Source of the DNA: Fidelibacterota bacterium
GTDB lineage: Bacteria; Fidelibacterota; UBA2242; JAOZSR01
DNA length: 64,000 nt
Direction of reading: 5' to 3'
Assembly: GCA_029939575.1 (NCBI GenBank)
Contig: JAOZSR010000004.1
Coordinates: forward strand, 1 to 64,000
In this document: positions 26,507 to 34,568 of the stretch, piece after piece
Layout: the number at the start of each line of letters is the position of its first letter
How positions within the stretch are numbered: the first letter of the stretch is position 1
Made by a program: the position numbers and the translations under genes
The notes under the pieces: model-generated
Database searches by the model: none
What the model was told of the DNA's origin: nothing
Seen by the model: only the letters and a program-made list of their open reading frames with translations

Positions 26507-26543
26507 AAAAAAAAGCAGCTATATTAAAATCCAGCTGCTTTTT
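26507..26543 (-). terminator. Rho-independent terminator of the motor-like operon
   Basis: AAAAAGCAGCT and AGCTGCTTTTT form a strong stem with a 12-base loop, about 20 bases after the FliG-like stop. Read on the minus strand it ends in an uninterrupted T-run, which marks the 3' end of the eight-gene transcript. Confidence 0.85.
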
Positions 26544-26563: not shown

Positions 26564-27496
26564 TTATTCGATAAAATCGGCTTCCATAAAATCACTTAAA
26601 TTAAATCGACCTTCTTTTTCTAATTCCCTGGCTTTATCAAGAATTTTTTTCTGGGCTGCCTCAACTTTCCGACGAGGCTGCGGCCCTTCCAACAAATCCA
26701 TCTCATCCTCAAGTATTATTTGTGTACGCTGCGGAAGGCAGTCTATAAACTTATCAATTAAATCATCATCTTTGCCTTTTAAAGAATAAGCCACATCAGA
26801 AGACTCTACGGATTTTAAAATTTCAGACAAATAATCTTTAGGTAGTAGTATCAAATCATCAAAAGTAAAATGATAATTTTTTATTTCTTTGGCTACTCCG
26901 GGTGCTTCTTTCTCTAAATGTTCCATAAATCTTTTTTCGTCTCTTGGTCTCATTTTACCCAGAATATTTGCAAGATTTTTCCCACCTCCCCTGGAAAATT
27001 CCGACTTTTTCGGAAGAAAATGCGATTTTTCCTTAAGTTCATTGGCAATACTAACAACACCTTCTAAAGGGATATCATGCAGATCACCCATCTCAGTTAA
27101 AACTTCAGGCTGAATTGCCGGGTCTAATCCCTGCAAAACAGATACTTGTCTCTCAATATCCAATTGGGCAATTGTTAAACCTGCAATCCTGGGTCTTTCT
27201 TCGGCAATAAGATAGATTACCTGTTCATCAGTCAATTTTTGAAGAAAATCAAAGGGTTTCTTTGTTTCTTGATCAGCTGGTTTGAGTTTATCAGAGATAT
27301 AACTAAAATAGAATTCTTCCATTACCTCTTTTTTAACACGAAAGGGAATTGTACTGATACTCTTCATATGATGTCTGATTTTATTGACCTTGCTCTGATC
27401 CATACCTTTAAATAGTTGAAGAGCTAATTTAGTGCCAAGCGTTTTAAATAAGATGGCTGCTTTATCCAATCCATTTAATTCTTTAAAGTCAACCAT
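26564..27496 (-). CDS. FliG-like rotor protein
   Basis: The 310-aa protein matches FliG along its length. The N-terminal LDKAAILFKTLGTKLALQLFKG corresponds to the FliF-binding domain. The middle region has IAEERPRIAGLTIAQL in place of the EHPQ-type motif. The C-terminal domain reads FTFDDLILLPKDYLSEILK, SLKGKDDDL, QRTQIILEDEM and AAQKKILDKARELEKEG. By eye, the charged torque positions known from E. coli FliG (Lys264, Arg281, Asp288, Asp289, Arg297) are all charged with the same sign here (K, R, D, E, R). In flagella FliG turns stator ion flow into rotation. It is last in an operon with MotA, MotB and a FliF-C-like protein, overlapping the latter by one base. No FliM or FliN is nearby. Confidence 0.85.
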   Translation of the reverse strand: MVDFKELNGLDKAAILFKTLGTKLALQLFKGMDQSKVNKIRHHMKSISTIPFRVKKEVMEEFYFSYISDKLKPADQETKKPFDFLQKLTDEQVIYLIAEERPRIAGLTIAQLDIERQVSVLQGLDPAIQPEVLTEMGDLHDIPLEGVVSIANELKEKSHFLPKKSEFSRGGGKNLANILGKMRPRDEKRFMEHLEKEAPGVAKEIKNYHFTFDDLILLPKDYLSEILKSVESSDVAYSLKGKDDDLIDKFIDCLPQRTQIILEDEMDLLEGPQPRRKVEAAQKKILDKARELEKEGRFNLSDFMEADFIE

Positions 27497-28914
27497 TACA
27501 CGTCTCCTTCTTCTTCAGATGATTCTTCATCGGTTTCCAACCAGCTATTAATAATATCAACTCCTTTAGTTGAATTGCCGATTGACATGGATATTACTGA
27601 TTGTTTTAGTCCTTTTACTTCTTCTTTTTGCTGAGATATTTCTTCTTCGGAAATTTTCTTAACTTTTCTTAATTCCGGTTTTTCAGGTCTGTCATAGTCT
27701 TCATTTACTTCCGGTGATTGATTCCCAATTTTCTGTGATGAAGTTTTTGCAACTGGTACAGTATTTTCAATTTGTGAATAATTAGCAGGTTGTACAGGAG
27801 GGCGAGTTCGGTTTTTTAATAATAAAACAATCATGAAAACCAATAATAGGGCTATAAATAATAGTAAAGCCCAAATTGCAAAGTCTTTCCCGGAAAACCT
27901 TGATGGTGGCTCTGTTTCCATGACACCTTTATCCAGTTCTGCTAATCTGGCGTTACTCTCTGTTAATTGTTTACGCAATAACTCTAATTCCTGTTCTCTT
28001 TCATCAGTTTCTTCTATTACAATTTTTTCTTCTGTTTCACTGATTTCCGGTTTATTTCGCTCATTTTTCAAATCGTCAATCTGTTTCTGTAATTTCGAAA
28101 TCCTGATTGAATCCTGTTTCATTGTATATTTTTCAAATCTTCTTTGTTTTTCTAATTTAGCATCCAATTCGGCACGTTGTTGTCTCTCTTCAAGATTAGA
28201 TAATTTTTCCGCAATATTTTTCAGAATCACATCCTCATTGCTTTTCTTTTTGGTTTTTCTATTAAATTCAGAAGTCATAATACTTAAAACATCACCCCGA
28301 GATCTATCATAATGTGCTGCAACTGAAGCAACCTCGCGCACATTTTCTATTACTTCCGGAGATATGCCATCTTCTAGAATTATTTTAATCTCCTGGCTCT
28401 TAACAACCGGTACTCTGATTCCTGATGAATGTTCTACATATATTTTTTTAGGTGTGCCTGATCTTTCCTGTACATTTTGAGTCAGAATATCTTCAGCCTC
28501 AGGCGCTGTTTCTTTTACCAGGGCTTCAGGTGTCTCAAATCCGGGTAAAGGCATAGAAACATCATCAACTTTAGCTTTATTATTATCCATATCGTCAGTG
28601 CTTTTGGTTGAAACCTCAGAATAAGATTGTTTTTTTTGTTCAATACTTGTTCTTACATTCTTTCCGTCTTTATCAAGATATACAAAATCAATTTCAATAT
28701 TTACATCTACAACATATTTTATGTCACCCAACAATTTGCCAAGAGCAGTATCCACTCTTTCCCGTAAACTATTCTCAAGTAACAACTTTTGAGATAAATA
28801 AGAAAGTTGATTATTTTGAGAAAATAAAAAGACTGAAAAAATTGATACCATCATCAATATAAATATTAGTGGATTGCATTGATTTCTCTTATTCTTGTTC
28901 ATAGAAACTCCCAT
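27496..28914 (-). CDS. FliF C-terminal-like membrane protein (truncated M-ring protein)
   Basis: Residues 14-33 form a signal or membrane segment. Then LRERVDTALGKLLGDIKYVVDVNIEIDF matches the start of the FliF C-terminal periplasmic domain, and IILEDGISPEVIENVREVAS with YDRSRGDVLSI matches its end. A long charged coiled coil (about residues 220-340) precedes a second helix WALLLFIALLLVFMIVLLL and a cytoplasmic tail ending GVDIINSWLETDEE. That ending resembles the FliG-binding tail of FliF (VAxVIRxWL). The ring-building motifs RBM1-3 of normal FliF (about 550 aa) are absent, so the gene is a half-FliF with an added coiled coil. The alternative start at 28902 is also plausible. Confidence 0.75.
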   Translation of the reverse strand: MGVSMNKNKRNQCNPLIFILMMVSIFSVFLFSQNNQLSYLSQKLLLENSLRERVDTALGKLLGDIKYVVDVNIEIDFVYLDKDGKNVRTSIEQKKQSYSEVSTKSTDDMDNNKAKVDDVSMPLPGFETPEALVKETAPEAEDILTQNVQERSGTPKKIYVEHSSGIRVPVVKSQEIKIILEDGISPEVIENVREVASVAAHYDRSRGDVLSIMTSEFNRKTKKKSNEDVILKNIAEKLSNLEERQQRAELDAKLEKQRRFEKYTMKQDSIRISKLQKQIDDLKNERNKPEISETEEKIVIEETDEREQELELLRKQLTESNARLAELDKGVMETEPPSRFSGKDFAIWALLLFIALLLVFMIVLLLKNRTRPPVQPANYSQIENTVPVAKTSSQKIGNQSPEVNEDYDRPEKPELRKVKKISEEEISQQKEEVKGLKQSVISMSIGNSTKGVDIINSWLETDEESSEEEGDV

Positions 28915-28919
28915 GTAAA

Positions 28920-29600
28920 TTATCCTATTGTTAAAAAGAATATTTCTACTCTTCTATTTTGTGATCTTTGCTCAGATGTTGCATTTGCTTCATCTACAGT
29001 ATTTCCCTGTGCTCTTGGTTGAGTGTCAGAATACCCAATCGCCTGAAAGCGATTAGATTGAATTCCCTGGGAAATAAAATATCTAACTACTCCGGATGCC
29101 CTGGATGATGAAAGTTCCCAGTTTGATGGAAATGTCGCTGACCTGATTGGTATATTATCGGTATGACCTTCAATCGCAATAGGGTATACCGATTTTTTTA
29201 TCATACTAACAAATTTTTCTAAAAAGGGATAGATTGCAGGGTCTAAATTGGCACTACCTGAAGCAAAAGATATTTCACTTGGAATTTTGATACAAACTCC
29301 ACGTGCACTGGTCTCAACCTCTACCTGCTCCTCTAAATTTTGTTCTTTTATTACATTAACAACTTCTGTATAAATTTCTGCTAAGGAAAATTTTTCTACC
29401 TTTTCCTTTTTCCCAAGTGCCTTCCCAACTGAATCACTAAATTGTTCCAATTTAACCGGATCAATTGTGGACATAGCAAAGAGCAGGACAAAAAATGTCA
29501 TAAGCAGGGTCATCATATCACCATATGTAATTAACCATGGTTCCTGTTCGTCTGATTTTTTCTTTGACAATTTTCCTAATTTACTTTCTTGGCTACTCAT
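28920..29600 (-). CDS. motB: MotB-type stator protein with OmpA peptidoglycan-binding domain
   Basis: A single N-terminal helix contains the ion-carrying Asp in WLITYGDMMTLLMTFFVLLF. A linker of about 60 residues leads to an OmpA-like domain with IEGHTDNIPI, NWELSSSRASGVVRY and NRRVEIFF, which anchors to peptidoglycan. With MotA, such proteins form the A5B2 ion-driven stator. At 226 aa it is a usual length. ExbD or TolR are excluded by the OmpA domain. It follows MotA by 15 bases and precedes the FliF-like gene by five. Confidence 0.93.
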   Translation of the reverse strand: MSSQESKLGKLSKKKSDEQEPWLITYGDMMTLLMTFFVLLFAMSTIDPVKLEQFSDSVGKALGKKEKVEKFSLAEIYTEVVNVIKEQNLEEQVEVETSARGVCIKIPSEISFASGSANLDPAIYPFLEKFVSMIKKSVYPIAIEGHTDNIPIRSATFPSNWELSSSRASGVVRYFISQGIQSNRFQAIGYSDTQPRAQGNTVDEANATSEQRSQNRRVEIFFLTIG

Positions 29601-29615
29601 ATTACATTCTCCTGA

Positions 29616-30401
29616 TTATTCCGGTGTTTTCCATTCGCGAGGACGTAAAAAAGAATTTAATTTTTCACGAACAATGATTGGATGCTTCCTGGCTTGTAAT
29701 AAAAGTACACCTTCAATTAACATAGTTTGCAAAATATTTTGCTGATCAATTCTGTTTTCAAATTTCACAGCCATCGGATTAAAAATTAAGTTTGCCAATA
29801 TTGTTCCATAAAATGTTGTAATTAATGCTGCTCCCATACCTTTTCCAAGTACAGACATAGGGTCTTCACCACCTCCGGCAATTTCACTCATCCCAAATAG
29901 CATGACTACCAAACCAATCAATGTTCCAATCATACCAAAAGCCGGAGAGTATTTCCCCATAGTTCTTAATACATTGGCGTCTGCCTGTTCCCGAAAACTT
30001 CTGTTCTCAATCCGGGTTTCCATAATTACCCTGATTTCTGATAACGGATATCCCTCGATAACCATTTGCAAACCATCTCGTAAAAACGGGTTATTGACCT
30101 TACTAAGTGCATTTTCTAATTCCTGCATACTTTTCCTGGCTTTTGGAGCCAGTTCAACAATATCTTCCAGTTGCTGAGCCATTTTTACTTCATTCTTCTT
30201 AAAAACCGCTAAGGAAGACCGCACTAACCCAAAGACCTGTTGAAAAGAAAAACTTAATAAAGTAGCGGCAAATGATCCGCCCGCAACAATTAATAAACTT
30301 GGAAGACTTGCAAATATCATAAAATTTGGCGTCAACTGAAAAATTCCAAGTAAAATTAATCCTACTCCCGATATTATCCCTAATAAACTTGCAATATCCA
30401 T
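29616..30401 (-). CDS. motA: MotA-type stator protein
   Basis: The 261-aa protein has four membrane segments. The helix 3 region is KYSPAFGMIGTLIGLVVMLFGM and helix 4 is GAALITTFYGTILANLIFNPMA; the prolines in PAFG and NPMA correspond to the conserved MotA/PomA prolines needed for torque. The large cytoplasmic loop between helices 2 and 3 (about residues 60-150) is where FliG is contacted in flagella. The pattern is closer to PomA-type than to ExbB/TolQ proteins. Whether it conducts H+ or Na+ cannot be settled by eye. It starts 13 bases after the barrel-TPR gene. Confidence 0.93.
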   Translation of the reverse strand: MDIASLLGIISGVGLILLGIFQLTPNFMIFASLPSLLIVAGGSFAATLLSFSFQQVFGLVRSSLAVFKKNEVKMAQQLEDIVELAPKARKSMQELENALSKVNNPFLRDGLQMVIEGYPLSEIRVIMETRIENRSFREQADANVLRTMGKYSPAFGMIGTLIGLVVMLFGMSEIAGGGEDPMSVLGKGMGAALITTFYGTILANLIFNPMAVKFENRIDQQNILQTMLIEGVLLLQARKHPIIVREKLNSFLRPREWKTPE

Positions 30402-30414
30402 AAAATAATCCCCT

Positions 30415-31764
30415 CTAGTGTTTTTTCTTGCCGGCGCTATGTAAACGATTTTCGTTCATAGCTCGTAAAATATTTCTGACATCATCATATTCCGGATCGA
30501 TTTTCAGAGCTAAATTCCAATTTATTGTCGCCCGGTCTATATCCCCTAATTTATAATAAATTGATCCCCTCCTGGCATAAGCAAGAGCAAGATTTGAATT
30601 TAATTCTATAGCTGCTTCAACCTCCTGCAAGGCTGAACGGTAATCATTAACATAAAAGTATCTTAAAGATTTTGATAAATGTTTCAATGCCAGATTAATA
30701 TTATGATCCATAGCATGTTTTGCTAACTTGACTGTTCTTACAGAATCTTCAAGAATTGATGTTTTTTGCCTCAGTTGTGCAACCTGGCTGGTCAAATATT
30801 TAATTTCAGTTTCATAAATTTCCAGAGAATCTCTAAGCTTTGCTATTTGATAATCTGCTGCTTGTAATGTAGAGTCCAACTTCCTGGCAAATTCTTCCTC
30901 AAGGTCAAGTATCATTCTGGATTTGCGGTCAACCATACCCTCTAAAACCCGTTTCTTAGCATCTCTTGGCTTCAGACGCGGAATCCTAAAATCAAATCCC
31001 AGGCTCAAACTTGGATTTGATGATAAATCCGAAATATCCAGGTCTTTTTCTCCAAAATTATACAATTTCGTAATATTATTAATACCTAACATCAGGTTAT
31101 AATCGTGGCTTAACGGCACTTTAACTCCAAAATTAAGAGCCCCGCCGTCAAATTCACCAACTATATCAACTCCGCCTAATTCTTCCCTCATGTTTGTATG
31201 AAAAAGCATTCCTGCAAAAACTCCTGCAGTAGTATCGGCAAATCCGGTTGCTAATCCTCCGGTACCAAATCCCATATAAGTAAATAGTTTATTTTCTCCA
31301 ATCTGTTTCTCATTACTAATTACTCCAAAAATCGATAAGGTTTTTGTATCAAGGTCAACATTTTTATTACCTTGTTTTAAAACCAAATCATTAATTCCGG
31401 CTGAAAAACTAATATCACCATAAACAAATAGCCTCTTTTGAAAATGTAAACCAAACTCAACTGGAGCATCACTACTGACACCCTGGATTGTTGTCATTCC
31501 TATTTTAAAAGCATCTGTGATATCCGTTTCCAGAAAAACCGCTTTGGAAAAAAGTGTGTCCCGGAAGCCATAGGTATCAGCACAAAATCCAGTTCTGAAA
31601 ACATAGGGTGTCCGATAAATACTGCTTGATGGAATTTTCATCATATAACCAGGTTTTGAAAATGCTACTCTTGTCACCTGGGCATTGGTTGCTCCAAGTC
31701 CAACTATAAAATATATAAGAAACATTAATAAAGCTTTTCTCATTTGACTAAGCTCCGTTTTCAA
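30415..31764 (-). CDS. Outer-membrane barrel-like protein with coiled coil and TPR tail
   Basis: A signal peptide (LLMFLIYFIVGLGATNAQ) is followed by about 245 residues of alternating strands typical of PorV/PorP-like outer-membrane proteins, for example VDIVGEFDGGALNFGVKVPL and PSLSLGFDFRIPR. Then a coiled coil (about 285-345; LRDSLEIYETEIKYLTSQ) and TPR units (ALKHLSKSLRYFYVNDYRSA, LAYARRGSIYYKLGDIDRA). The tail would face the periplasm if the barrel sits in the outer membrane, offering a bridge toward the MotB/FliF-like proteins. No exact family is recognised. Its start overlaps the previous gene by ATGA. Confidence 0.7.
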   Translation of the reverse strand: MKTELSQMRKALLMFLIYFIVGLGATNAQVTRVAFSKPGYMMKIPSSSIYRTPYVFRTGFCADTYGFRDTLFSKAVFLETDITDAFKIGMTTIQGVSSDAPVEFGLHFQKRLFVYGDISFSAGINDLVLKQGNKNVDLDTKTLSIFGVISNEKQIGENKLFTYMGFGTGGLATGFADTTAGVFAGMLFHTNMREELGGVDIVGEFDGGALNFGVKVPLSHDYNLMLGINNITKLYNFGEKDLDISDLSSNPSLSLGFDFRIPRLKPRDAKKRVLEGMVDRKSRMILDLEEEFARKLDSTLQAADYQIAKLRDSLEIYETEIKYLTSQVAQLRQKTSILEDSVRTVKLAKHAMDHNINLALKHLSKSLRYFYVNDYRSALQEVEAAIELNSNLALAYARRGSIYYKLGDIDRATINWNLALKIDPEYDDVRNILRAMNENRLHSAGKKKH

Positions 31765-32486
31765 TCTTCTACCAGTTTCAGGCTCTTTATTTTCAAACTA
31801 GCCAATCTCGCTAATTTAGTTCCTGGGAACCGATCAATCAGACGTTTATAAAAAATATTTGCGTTCTCAATATTATCGAGATTCTGATAAGTTACTGCAC
31901 TTAAAAATAGTGCATCTCCAAATTTTTCAGCAATTGGATATTCGGCAACTTTCTTTAGATATTCCAGAGCGAGATATTTATCATTCATTTGGATGTGACA
32001 ATATCCAATCCAATAATAAGCATCTCCAATACTTGCTGATGGTATTTTACTGGAAACTGCCCTTGTAAAATAATCAATAGCCACTTCATATTTATTATGA
32101 ACAAAAGCATCATGCCCTTTTTTATAAAAATTCAATCCCTCTTGTTTGGAGTAAATTTTTATATCCGAAGAAATCGAGGAATAGGGAGAAAGAAATATTT
32201 TCTGCTTCAATTTTGATATTTCATTGGCTAAAGAATCATTTTCTTTGGATAATTTTTCAATTTTGAATGCTGTTAAAGTTTTATTTTTGTTAATAGCCAT
32301 ATAGAGGGAGTCCAGTTGAGCTTGAATCGTGCTCAATCCTGAGTTAGCAACGCCAATTCCACCTTCAGGGGGGACAGACTCCCTCGTTGGCTCAATTTTT
32401 ATTCCTAAATCATATAAAAATTCCGGTTTTCCTGCTTTAGCAGTATCCAATTCCTGAGATATGACAGATATAGGGAACATGAGCAA
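31761..32486 (-). CDS. Periplasmic coiled-coil/TPR protein (YbgF/CpoB-like)
   Basis: After an N-terminal export signal come a short coiled coil (about residues 50-90) and TPR repeats such as NFYKKGHDAFVHNKYEVAIDYF and DAYYWIGYCHIQMNDKYLALEYL, the layout of the Tol-Pal partner YbgF/CpoB. The listed start is TTG at 32486, which gives a signal peptide without its basic end. Extending the frame upstream gives IFKIGIFILLMFPISVISQ from an ATT at 32513 that overlaps the previous stop as TAATT and sits eight bases after GGAG. I consider that ATT the probable true start. It is the third gene of the motor-like operon. Confidence 0.72.
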   Translation of the reverse strand: MLMFPISVISQELDTAKAGKPEFLYDLGIKIEPTRESVPPEGGIGVANSGLSTIQAQLDSLYMAINKNKTLTAFKIEKLSKENDSLANEISKLKQKIFLSPYSSISSDIKIYSKQEGLNFYKKGHDAFVHNKYEVAIDYFTRAVSSKIPSASIGDAYYWIGYCHIQMNDKYLALEYLKKVAEYPIAEKFGDALFLSAVTYQNLDNIENANIFYKRLIDRFPGTKLARLASLKIKSLKLVED

Positions 32487-32512
32487 AATAAAAATTCCAA
32501 TCTTAAAAATAA

Positions 32513-33292
32513 TTAAAATTTCTCCCGATTAATTATATATTCATTTGTTTTATCAATTAATTGACTATCTGGAAATAATTTTTCCATTTCTTTAAAAATC
32601 GATATCGCTTTTTCTTTATTCCCCAATTGAAGATAACTCATTCCAATTTTAAATAAAGCCGCGTCTTCTTTATTACCATCTCCAAGACCATTAACCTTTT
32701 TAAATTCTTCAATCGCGCGTAAAAATTTTCCAAGGGAATAATAACATTCACCTAACCAATATTGAGCATTATCTATAAGAGGATGATCTAACCCGGAAGA
32801 TACAAGAAAATGGAACTTCTCGGCACTGACCTCATATTTATTATCAAAATATGCACTTAGAGATTCATTATAAATACTGCGAAACTCAGAATCTTTCATT
32901 TTTAAATCTTCATGAGAAGTCTTTACAGCATTTGTATCTTTTATAAAAATCGAAGTTTCCAGGCTTTTCATTACTTCCCTGGAGAGTCTTTTTTCTTCCT
33001 CATAAGCCTTTAATAAGGAACGAAGGTTTTCTATTTCTGTTTCCTTTTTCCCCAGACTATCTACCAGGTTCATATTATAATTTTTTGTTTTGGAAAGATC
33101 CTTTTTAATGAGTTCCAGTTCATTCTCCTGAATTGTCAAAGCAGATCTAAGATCTAAAATTTCAACAGCTTTCTTCTCCAACTCTACCTTTTTATCAGAA
33201 TATTCCGGATCAGTCTTGTTATTATTTTCCTGGGCAATAGCTGCGGAAAATATAATAAAAAAAATGAAAAGATAATAAGAGCGAATCATCAT
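32513..33292 (-). CDS. Periplasmic coiled-coil/TPR protein (YbgF/CpoB-like)
   Basis: The 259-aa product has a signal peptide (YYLFIFFIIFSAAIAQ), a long coiled coil (about residues 28-105, KKAVEILDLRSALTIQENEL) and three TPR-like units with NAQYWLGECYYSLGKFLRAI and AALFKIGMSYLQLGNKEKAI. It shares its plan with the next gene, suggesting duplication. In other bacteria YbgF/CpoB works with Tol-Pal at the division site; here it is embedded with MotAB and FliF/FliG-like genes, so it may be an envelope scaffold of that machine. Its start overlaps the lipoprotein gene by four bases. Confidence 0.75.
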   Translation of the reverse strand: MMIRSYYLFIFFIIFSAAIAQENNNKTDPEYSDKKVELEKKAVEILDLRSALTIQENELELIKKDLSKTKNYNMNLVDSLGKKETEIENLRSLLKAYEEEKRLSREVMKSLETSIFIKDTNAVKTSHEDLKMKDSEFRSIYNESLSAYFDNKYEVSAEKFHFLVSSGLDHPLIDNAQYWLGECYYSLGKFLRAIEEFKKVNGLGDGNKEDAALFKIGMSYLQLGNKEKAISIFKEMEKLFPDSQLIDKTNEYIINREKF

Positions 33293-34281
33293 TTATACTG
33301 CTCCCATTCAACTGTATATGAATATCCAACAAAGGAACCAAAGGATTTAGGTATTATTAATTTAAATTTTCCGGTTGCTCCGGGTAATAGAGAATTATTT
33401 GTTGTAATACCTGATCTTTCAAAAGTAAAATACGAACCTTCTATAAAACTTGTTTTATTTTTAGTATCTCCACTCCAGTTTTTCCGAAATACAAAATTAA
33501 CTTTGACAAAATCAGCTCTTTTTGAACCAATATTTTTAACTTCTCCGGTAAAAATCGTATTCCCTGTACGGTCTTTTACTTCTTTAATATTCCCAAGTAA
33601 AACACAATTTGCATTAGGTGTTTTTTGGGTTTTTATGTCCGCCGGATTCTGGCCTCCCGATATATACTGCTGTTGAATCATTTTAGTAATTGATGGTGTA
33701 TCTTCGAGATCAACCGTAATATCATCAGGCACATATTGCTCTGCTGGTTTTTCGGGAACATTGGTAATAATTCTAACAATACTCTCTTTTTCCAAAGTCA
33801 AATATCCAATTAATGTCTCAACTTTGACAATGTTTTCATCCTGAAAAACGACTTTCCCAAAAACTGTAGTACCATTTTTGGTCACAATTTCCTTATCATA
33901 CATGGCCAGTGGATTGGTCCACATTTTACTCTTTGACTGGATTTCCCGTAATTCTTTTTTCAGATGCTTAACTTCAGCGGAAAGTTTTTTAATTTCAAAC
34001 GTAAGCTCGTTGATTACATAATTCTGGTCCTCACTGGTTGTAGCAGATGGAACAGCTACAGGTTTGTGGCTACCTTCGGAACCTGTGATATTTTGAGCTG
34101 CTTCGGTTATAGTTGATTGGTCATCATCTAAGATCGGCTTCTTTTCTTCAGTTAAAGAGGTAAGTTCAACACTGGCAGAATCCGGGGTAACCTCTTCACT
34201 GGACTTAGATCGAAGTTTAAGACTGCTACAACTTAGCAAGAATAAAAAAGATACAAATAATATTAGTACTTTTGATTTCAT
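33289..34281 (-). CDS. Lipoprotein with coiled coil and FxLYD-like domain
   Basis: The 330-aa protein opens with LFVSFLFLLSCSSLKL, a clear lipobox with Cys near residue 18. A low-complexity acidic stretch and a coiled coil (FEIKKLSAEVKHLKKELREI, about residues 95-115) follow. Next is a small SH3-like segment (TKNGTTVFGKVVFQDENIVK), then a C-terminal beta-sandwich (about 215-330; TGEVKNIGSKRADFVKVNFVF) like FxLYD domains. It is the first gene of the eight-gene motor-like operon. No enzymatic motif is visible; a structural outer- or inner-membrane anchor is the likely type of role. Confidence 0.68.
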   Translation of the reverse strand: MKSKVLILFVSFLFLLSCSSLKLRSKSSEEVTPDSASVELTSLTEEKKPILDDDQSTITEAAQNITGSEGSHKPVAVPSATTSEDQNYVINELTFEIKKLSAEVKHLKKELREIQSKSKMWTNPLAMYDKEIVTKNGTTVFGKVVFQDENIVKVETLIGYLTLEKESIVRIITNVPEKPAEQYVPDDITVDLEDTPSITKMIQQQYISGGQNPADIKTQKTPNANCVLLGNIKEVKDRTGNTIFTGEVKNIGSKRADFVKVNFVFRKNWSGDTKNKTSFIEGSYFTFERSGITTNNSLLPGATGKFKLIIPKSFGSFVGYSYTVEWEQYK

Positions 34282-34568
34282 AATCCCACACCTTCAGGTA
34301 TCTTTAATTTTTAATTCAATGGCAATGGCGTTACTCTCTAAATAATATAGTTTTCAATCATGTACAATGTCAAGAAAAAAATTTCATACTCTTCTCTGAA
34401 AAAAAATCCTGACAACCACCTTATATTTTTTTATTCTTTTTTATAAAATATTATCAATCTTACTTTGTTACTAGTAATATAATACAATATTTTATATATA
34501 ATTATCGTCATTACTATATTAACAAAAAAATATTAATTTATAATCATCAGTATAGTTTTAATATTATA

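Follow-up and report, generated by a model that had tools for sequence, protein, structure and literature searches.

What does a flagellar-type rotary engine do when its genes stand apart from a flagellum? The question is raised by an eight-gene operon at positions 34281-26564, on the reverse strand, of a 64,000-nucleotide stretch of DNA from a Fidelibacterota bacterium (assembly GCA_029939575.1, contig JAOZSR010000004.1, positions 1 to 64,000), the whole of which is called the window below. The operon encodes a MotA/MotB-type stator, a FliG-like rotor protein and a FliF-like protein (FliFx), together with a lipoprotein, two tetratricopeptide-repeat (TPR) proteins, TPR1 and TPR2, and a predicted outer-membrane barrel protein, OMTPR. 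FliF and FliG are treated as flagellar hallmarks, and FliF-like rings also as a hallmark of injectisomes. The interpretation developed here, to which a probability of roughly 60% is attached, is that these genes specify a cell-envelope rotary machine, complete in itself and not part of a flagellum, whatever its exact load. Within it, a MotAB-driven FliG/FliFx motor independent of flagella is very likely, and coupling of that motor to the outer membrane is likely.

A second engine beside the flagellum

The genome of the window, a member of the Marinimicrobia/SAR406 (3.8 Mb, 95% complete), encodes a flagellum elsewhere. FliM, FliN and FlhA were identified by profile on contig C50, where FliL, FliP, FliR and FlhB were recognised by eye in the same gene run; contig C78 carries FliE-FliF-FliG-FliH-FliI-FliJ and contig C188 FlgD-FlgE-MotA-MotB, the small flagellar genes on these two contigs being named by eye and position. 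The C78 FliF and FliG both pass the NCBIfam flagellar cut-offs (236.8 against 129.75 and 355.9 against 226.7, respectively), and their operon counterparts do not. INDEPENDENCE from the flagellum follows, because a flagellum that has FliF and FliG genes of its own does not borrow those of the operon, which is a second engine in this genome. The operon itself contains no chemotaxis gene, and none for FliM/FliN, the export gate, rod, hook or filament. The first-pass annotation of the window had relied on the latter lack in proposing a self-contained, ion-driven rotor-stator distinct from a normal flagellum, and had foreseen that the proposal would fail if a flagellum elsewhere in the genome lacked an engine of its own. 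FliM, FliN, FlhA, FliI and FlgE are present along with a separate FliF, FliG and MotAB, so the proposal stands, although missing flagellar genes in one operon are an insufficient argument by themselves; the distribution of the operon is decisive.

Distribution and gene order across the phylum

A scan of genome collections with an OMTPR alignment yielded 142 confirmed loci. The best 80 of these 142 were used, all titled Marinimicrobia or Neomarinimicrobiota, or generically (bacterium, FCB group bacterium), and were combined with 34 loci from relatives into a gene-order set of 114. The full series lipoprotein-(TPR)-OMTPR-MotA-MotB-FliFx-FliG is present in 87 loci; 27 are truncated by a contig end, beyond which their missing genes lie, and none is rearranged. 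The retention of one order throughout 114 loci argues against a chance grouping and supports OMTPR, the gene by which the operon was counted, as a marker of the whole. Many relatives show only one of TPR1 and TPR2.

In a survey of 245 genomes from the phylum, a strong OMTPR match was found in 164, FlhA above cut-off in 42 and FliM/N in 40, all within the 42. The operon occurs without FlhA in 131 genomes and with it in 33, nine have the flagellum only, and 72 have neither; all 131 FlhA-free carriers also lack FliM/N. Among the good-quality genomes (about 94), about 71 carry the operon, about 55 of those without FlhA. Carriers that lack both FlhA and FliM/N make up 131/164. One such carrier (G036, locus L064) is probably Fidelibacter multiformis, whose strain IA91, the only cultured member of the phylum, is non-motile (PMC11652737); carriers thus probably include a cultured non-motile organism.

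These counts bear directly on the idea that the operon supplies a spare or alternative rotor and stator set for the flagellum. The genome of the window does encode a flagellum, and several FliG or MotAB copies occur in some bacteria, yet a spare set is hard to reconcile with the 131 carriers in which FlhA and FliM/N are missing, with a flagellum that owns its FliF, FliG and MotAB, or with an operon FliG devoid of the FliM-binding motif. This explanation, already contradicted by the distribution, is extremely improbable, and a role as accessory flagellar parts is ruled out on the same ground.

Two divergent copies of the operon or of the OMTPR gene are seen in some genomes (L096 and L145, UBA2125; L159 and L162, SP173; G147; G185). 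The flanks of the operon vary between clades (baeRF, GcpE, tryptophan dioxygenase, GCS2) and offer no functional clue. A viral origin was also considered and rejected, no FliFx relative being found among viral contigs in what was a weak test with short peptides of one protein.

The rotor proteins

The FliG-like protein (26564..27496, reverse strand; 310 amino acids) retains the N, M and C domains of FliG, with Pfam matches all above cut-off (FliG_C 7e-28, FliG_N 2.5e-15, FliG_M 4e-8) and a profile match of 7e-24 to solved FliG structures in the PDB. It fails the flagellar FliG equivalog TIGR00207 (142.5 bits against a cut-off of 226.7). Across the sampled loci, to which the residue counts here and for the stator refer, K264 is conserved in 35/35 sequences, the R281 position is R or K in 35/35 and is closely followed by acidic residues, and D288/D289, an acidic pair, reads D-E in 13/35, the window protein included. 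The FliM-binding EHPQ motif is lost: H126 is gone, Q128 is replaced by R in 27/35 and R160 by E in 25/35, as expected of a rotor without FliM. A shortened torque helix, KKQAM[FY]EPVEG, is found in loci such as L056, L060 and L063, and suggests a changed stator-rotor contact in derived clades.

FliFx (27496..28914, reverse strand; 472 amino acids) is the more divergent of the two. Its match to Pfam YscJ_FliF_C (2.9e-4) lies under the cut-off, and no YscJ_FliF or TIGR00206 match was found in Pfam and NCBIfam, consistent with the absence of RBM1 and RBM2. A profile built from 34 FliFx sequences nevertheless ranks flagellar M-ring (FliF) proteins first in the PDB (5.7e-5). The AlphaFold2 model, with a predicted local distance difference test score of 70 overall and >90 in the RBM3 (S-ring) domain, has the alpha-beta-beta-alpha-beta order of RBM3, and all 16 of its Foldseek matches below 1e-3 are FliF MS-ring or S-ring entries. 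FliFx is taken as a FliF homologue because these two independent tests agree; with the Pfam results, they uphold the FliF and FliG assignments on which the first-pass annotation depended. Past RBM3, a coiled coil (residues ~223-334) is followed by one membrane helix (340-370) and a cytoplasmic tail, whose conserved motif VSMSVGxPxxAxxIxxxWL aligns, at low score, with the FliG-binding end of FliF. Among relatives the N-termini end in ..AQ or ..GQ, like those of the other exported proteins of the operon, pointing to a cleaved signal peptide in place of the first membrane helix of FliF. FliFx would accordingly be a reduced FliF that keeps only the S-ring domain RBM3, with the first membrane helix apparently absent.

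A natural FliF-FliG fusion is also encoded in this genome, on the forward strand at C45:43579-45108 (locus L066:8579-10108; FliG_C 1e-14). It combines a signal peptide, a periplasmic domain that resembles RBM3 and shares the LPGF motif, one membrane helix and FliG domains, and lies upstream of two coiled-coil/TPR proteins, one of them a lipoprotein. The FliFx hidden Markov model does not match it, and profile comparison gives a probability of 67% (E 5e-5); it may represent a second, more compact non-flagellar rotor.

The stator

The MotA-type subunit (29616..30401, reverse strand; 261 amino acids) matches Pfam MotA_ExbB (3.7e-25) and MotA/PomA structures in the PDB (1e-45 to 4e-37), and in NCBIfam it scores best with the models for MotP and PomA, both of the Na+ type. 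The MotB-type subunit (28920..29600, reverse strand; 226 amino acids) matches MotB_plug (4e-20) and, in its peptidoglycan-binding domain, OmpA (1e-18), with MotB/PomB as closest solved relatives. Both miss the NCBIfam flagellar equivalog cut-offs (MotA 174.5/394 bits, MotB 183/283), a test that does not discriminate, since the flagellar MotA and MotB of the same genome fail it too. R90, P173 and P222 of MotA are conserved in 34/34 sequences and E98 in 33/34, as is the equivalent of MotB Asp32 in 34/34. MotA has Thr at both Na+-stator positions, and by analogy with PomAB, whose ion preference we presume to carry over, the stator would be of the Na+ type.

Such conservation argues against a complex that descends from stator and rotor and does not rotate, whether it be a mechanosensor, an ion valve or a structural collar. 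The much reduced FliFx and the short torque helix of many members would fit a static assembly; strict retention of ion-path and torque residues (MotB D32 and MotA R90 without exception) would not, and this alternative is judged very unlikely.

Two further stator loci lie in this genome away from flagellar and operon genes: a MotA-MotB pair adjoining a response regulator (C16:53216-54821; L068:8216-9821) and a solitary MotA flanked by an asparaginase-like gene and one for a short membrane protein (C156:22651-23508; L069:7651-8508).

Predicted periplasmic and outer-membrane parts

The remaining four genes, all on the reverse strand, encode proteins predicted to be exported. The first gene of the operon (33289..34281) encodes a 330-residue lipoprotein with the lipobox LLSC, a coiled coil and a conserved C-terminal domain; it matches no Pfam family and keeps its place in all loci that reach it. 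TPR1 (32513..33292; 259 amino acids) and TPR2 (31761..32486; 241 amino acids) are secreted-type coiled-coil proteins with YbgF/CpoB-like TPRs, matching TPR_6 (2e-13 and 2e-12) and tol_pal_ybgF (9e-18, below cut-off, and 1.5e-13). OMTPR (30415..31764) is 449 amino acids long from a TTG start, with an ATG at 31743, 21 bases inside, as a likely start. Its AlphaFold2 model (score 79) comprises a predicted beta-barrel, a 75-residue helix and a C-terminal TPR, with Foldseek matches to FapF/KdgM-type barrels and to TPRs; in the alignment, the TPR holds a nearly invariant AYARRGSIYYKLGD..RATINWNLAL motif.

Proposed mechanism and output

In MotAB stators, ion flow turns MotA round a MotB held by peptidoglycan. 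The operon has the residues needed for the same action, and its MotA5-MotB2 stators, anchored to peptidoglycan, would rotate MotA as ions pass. R90 and E98 of MotA would then push on FliG_C and turn a FliG ring, both sides of this presumed contact having the relevant residues. FliG_N would grip the C-terminal tail of FliFx, which RBM3, by analogy with the S-ring, would assemble into a ring, and the coiled coil of FliFx may form a stalk reaching into the periplasm, to transmit motion or set a spacing. At the outer membrane, the lipoprotein, the YbgF/CpoB-like TPR proteins and OMTPR, through its barrel and helix-TPR arm, would take up the force. A motor without FliM and FliN probably lacks direction switching.

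The output tentatively favoured, as the most likely of those considered, is envelope work: mechanical energisation of the outer membrane and peptidoglycan in the manner of Tol-Pal. The preference rests on TPR partners of the CpoB/YbgF kind, on a probable carrier that is non-motile, and on finding neither a convincing TolB nor a convincing GldM across the phylum. TolB_N matches in the 245 genomes are marginal only (in 24, best 4.6e-6); TolA and Pal were not searched for, and on the TolB_N survey classical Tol-Pal may be absent from the phylum. Complementarity with Tol-Pal was considered as a clue and discarded as uninformative, TolB being all but missing from carriers and non-carriers alike.

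The same motor could instead move the cell or its surface adhesins, in the style of Agl-Glt or the gliding machine of Bacteroidota. The combination of an ion-driven motor, TPR proteins in the periplasm and a barrel in the outer membrane does resemble the layout of gliding machines (PMC13104615), and nearly every genome surveyed has SprA, a protein tied to gliding in Bacteroidota. Gliding nevertheless sits poorly with a probable carrier reported as non-motile, with the many carriers whose record titles indicate planktonic marine assemblies, and with the lack of a recognised surface adhesin gene among the few identified genes flanking the operon; this output is rather unlikely. A motor that powers SprA-type (type 9-like) secretion in place of GldLM is doubtful to a slightly greater degree. 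SprA occurs in 233 of the 245 genomes, both carriers and non-carriers of the operon, and GldM was found in only two, both perhaps contaminated, so that the known type 9 motor appears to be missing; a very divergent GldM can escape detection, however, and GldL was not searched for. All 94 good-quality genomes have SprA, operon-free ones among them, which argues that this motor is not obligatory for it.

Several observations weigh against a rotary machine doing envelope work, the reading preferred here. Nearly complete genomes of ~1 Mb are among the 72 that lack both operon and flagellum, so the function is dispensable. Operon-free, flagellum-free genomes are also without TolB, and there is thus no complementary pattern that would prove a Tol-like role. 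The torque helix is shortened in 22/35 FliGs, with D288/D289 lost or shifted, though the sequence is still acidic (KKQAMFEPVEG). Because RBM1, RBM2 and apparently the first membrane helix are missing from FliFx, ring formation is proposed by analogy.

Evolution of the motor

Six components diverge in step: their pairwise distances show correlations of 0.67-0.91, a level reached in 0/999 permutations, as would be seen in parts that are inherited as a unit. A tree of 62 FliGs, of which 21 are flagellar ones from this phylum and seven come from other phyla, places the operon-type (accessory) FliGs in one clade (Shimodaira-Hasegawa-like approximate likelihood ratio test support 99) outside all flagellar FliGs sampled; its stem is long, making its depth uncertain. 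There is a slim chance that this lineage diverged when the flagellar engine had not yet been joined to an export apparatus, a placement that long-branch effects could mimic.

Operon boundaries and control signals

The eight open reading frames form a compact, bounded unit in which three junctions are overlaps (4, 4 and 1 bases) and four are gaps (26, 13, 15 and 5 bases). Directly past the last gene, at about 26507..26543 on the reverse strand, lies an intrinsic terminator (AGCAGCT-loop-AGCTGCT, then T8), whose hairpin, AAAAAGCAGCT-loop-AGCTGCTTTTTTTT, has a computed fold energy of -14.4 kcal/mol (z -3.6); a pattern scan missed it because its 10-12 nucleotide loop falls outside the pattern. A promoter-like TTGACA-18-TATATT, a match to consensus, lies on the same strand at 34344..34373, 63-92 bases upstream of the lipoprotein gene, such sites being only modestly commoner in the region than in shuffles. 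A gene for UTP-glucose-1-phosphate uridylyltransferase precedes the operon at 287 bases, and a response regulator gene comes after it. Coordinates, junctions and fold agree with the earlier description of eight genes joined by overlaps or short gaps and closed by one terminator, just as the Pfam and NCBIfam matches, lipobox and OMTPR model agree with its two YbgF/CpoB-like TPR genes, lipoprotein and barrel/coiled-coil/TPR gene.

Significance and comparison with known systems

A conserved FliF/FliG/MotAB engine spans a phylum of ocean and subsurface Marinimicrobia/SAR406 in which most carriers have no flagellum, and automatic labelling of FliG and MotAB as motility genes would mislead there. 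If it rotates, a flagellar engine is usable apart from the flagellum, and the operon offers a simple natural rotor-stator for the study of torque without the FliM/N switch; it would also bear on the origin of flagella and give a function to genes kept in a large share of an abundant, hardly cultured ocean group. The main text of a 2025 survey that covers MotAB together with non-flagellar relatives classes stators with a torque-generating interface as flagellar and names neither FliF nor Marinimicrobia (PMC12505986), and a 2026 review of gliding does not mention FliG (PMC13104615). No description of the operon was found in literature on FliG/MotA in Marinimicrobia, SAR406 motility and non-flagellar FliG/FliF, a search whose coverage left out preprints and most subscription journals.

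With the flagellar motor, the operon shares a homologous stator, the FliG N, M and C domains, FliF RBM3, torque and ion residues and possibly, given a low-scoring alignment, a motif like the FliF tail. It differs in lacking FliM/FliN, RBM1/RBM2, apparently the first membrane helix of FliF, and the export gate, rod, hook, filament and chemotaxis genes, in adding TPR, outer-membrane barrel and lipoprotein genes, and in occurring in flagellum-free genomes. Tol-Pal (TolQRAB, Pal, CpoB/YbgF) likewise has an ion-driven inner-membrane motor, CpoB/YbgF-like coiled-coil TPRs, an OmpA-like peptidoglycan-binding domain and a presumed outer-membrane partner, whereas the operon stator is of the MotA/MotB and not the TolQR type, a FliG/FliF rotor is present, and TolA, TolB and Pal are absent from the operon.

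The GldLM motor of type 9 secretion and gliding is similarly coupled to periplasmic and outer-membrane parts, in a phylum where SprA is nearly universal; here, however, the engine is MotAB-FliG-FliF, GldM was not found in 243/245 genomes, and SprA is present in operon-free genomes too. In Myxococcus, AglRQS-Glt is reported to drive a trans-envelope complex with a motor of the MotAB/TolQR class, but it has no known FliG/FliF rotor, and no Glt protein scores above cut-off here. Zorya (ZorAB) has a MotA/MotB-related stator, and ZorB models match the operon MotB (3e-24); no ZorA or ZorC/D/E match was found, the operon has rotor proteins and it is phylum-wide where Zorya is sporadic, and a defence role was rejected. 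The protein families are thus known, and the machine that they form, a flagellar-type engine with outer-membrane parts and no flagellum, fits no known kind among those tested. It probably represents a new class of trans-envelope rotary machine, ancestral in a major ocean phylum, in which a flagellar engine without a flagellum works the outer membrane.

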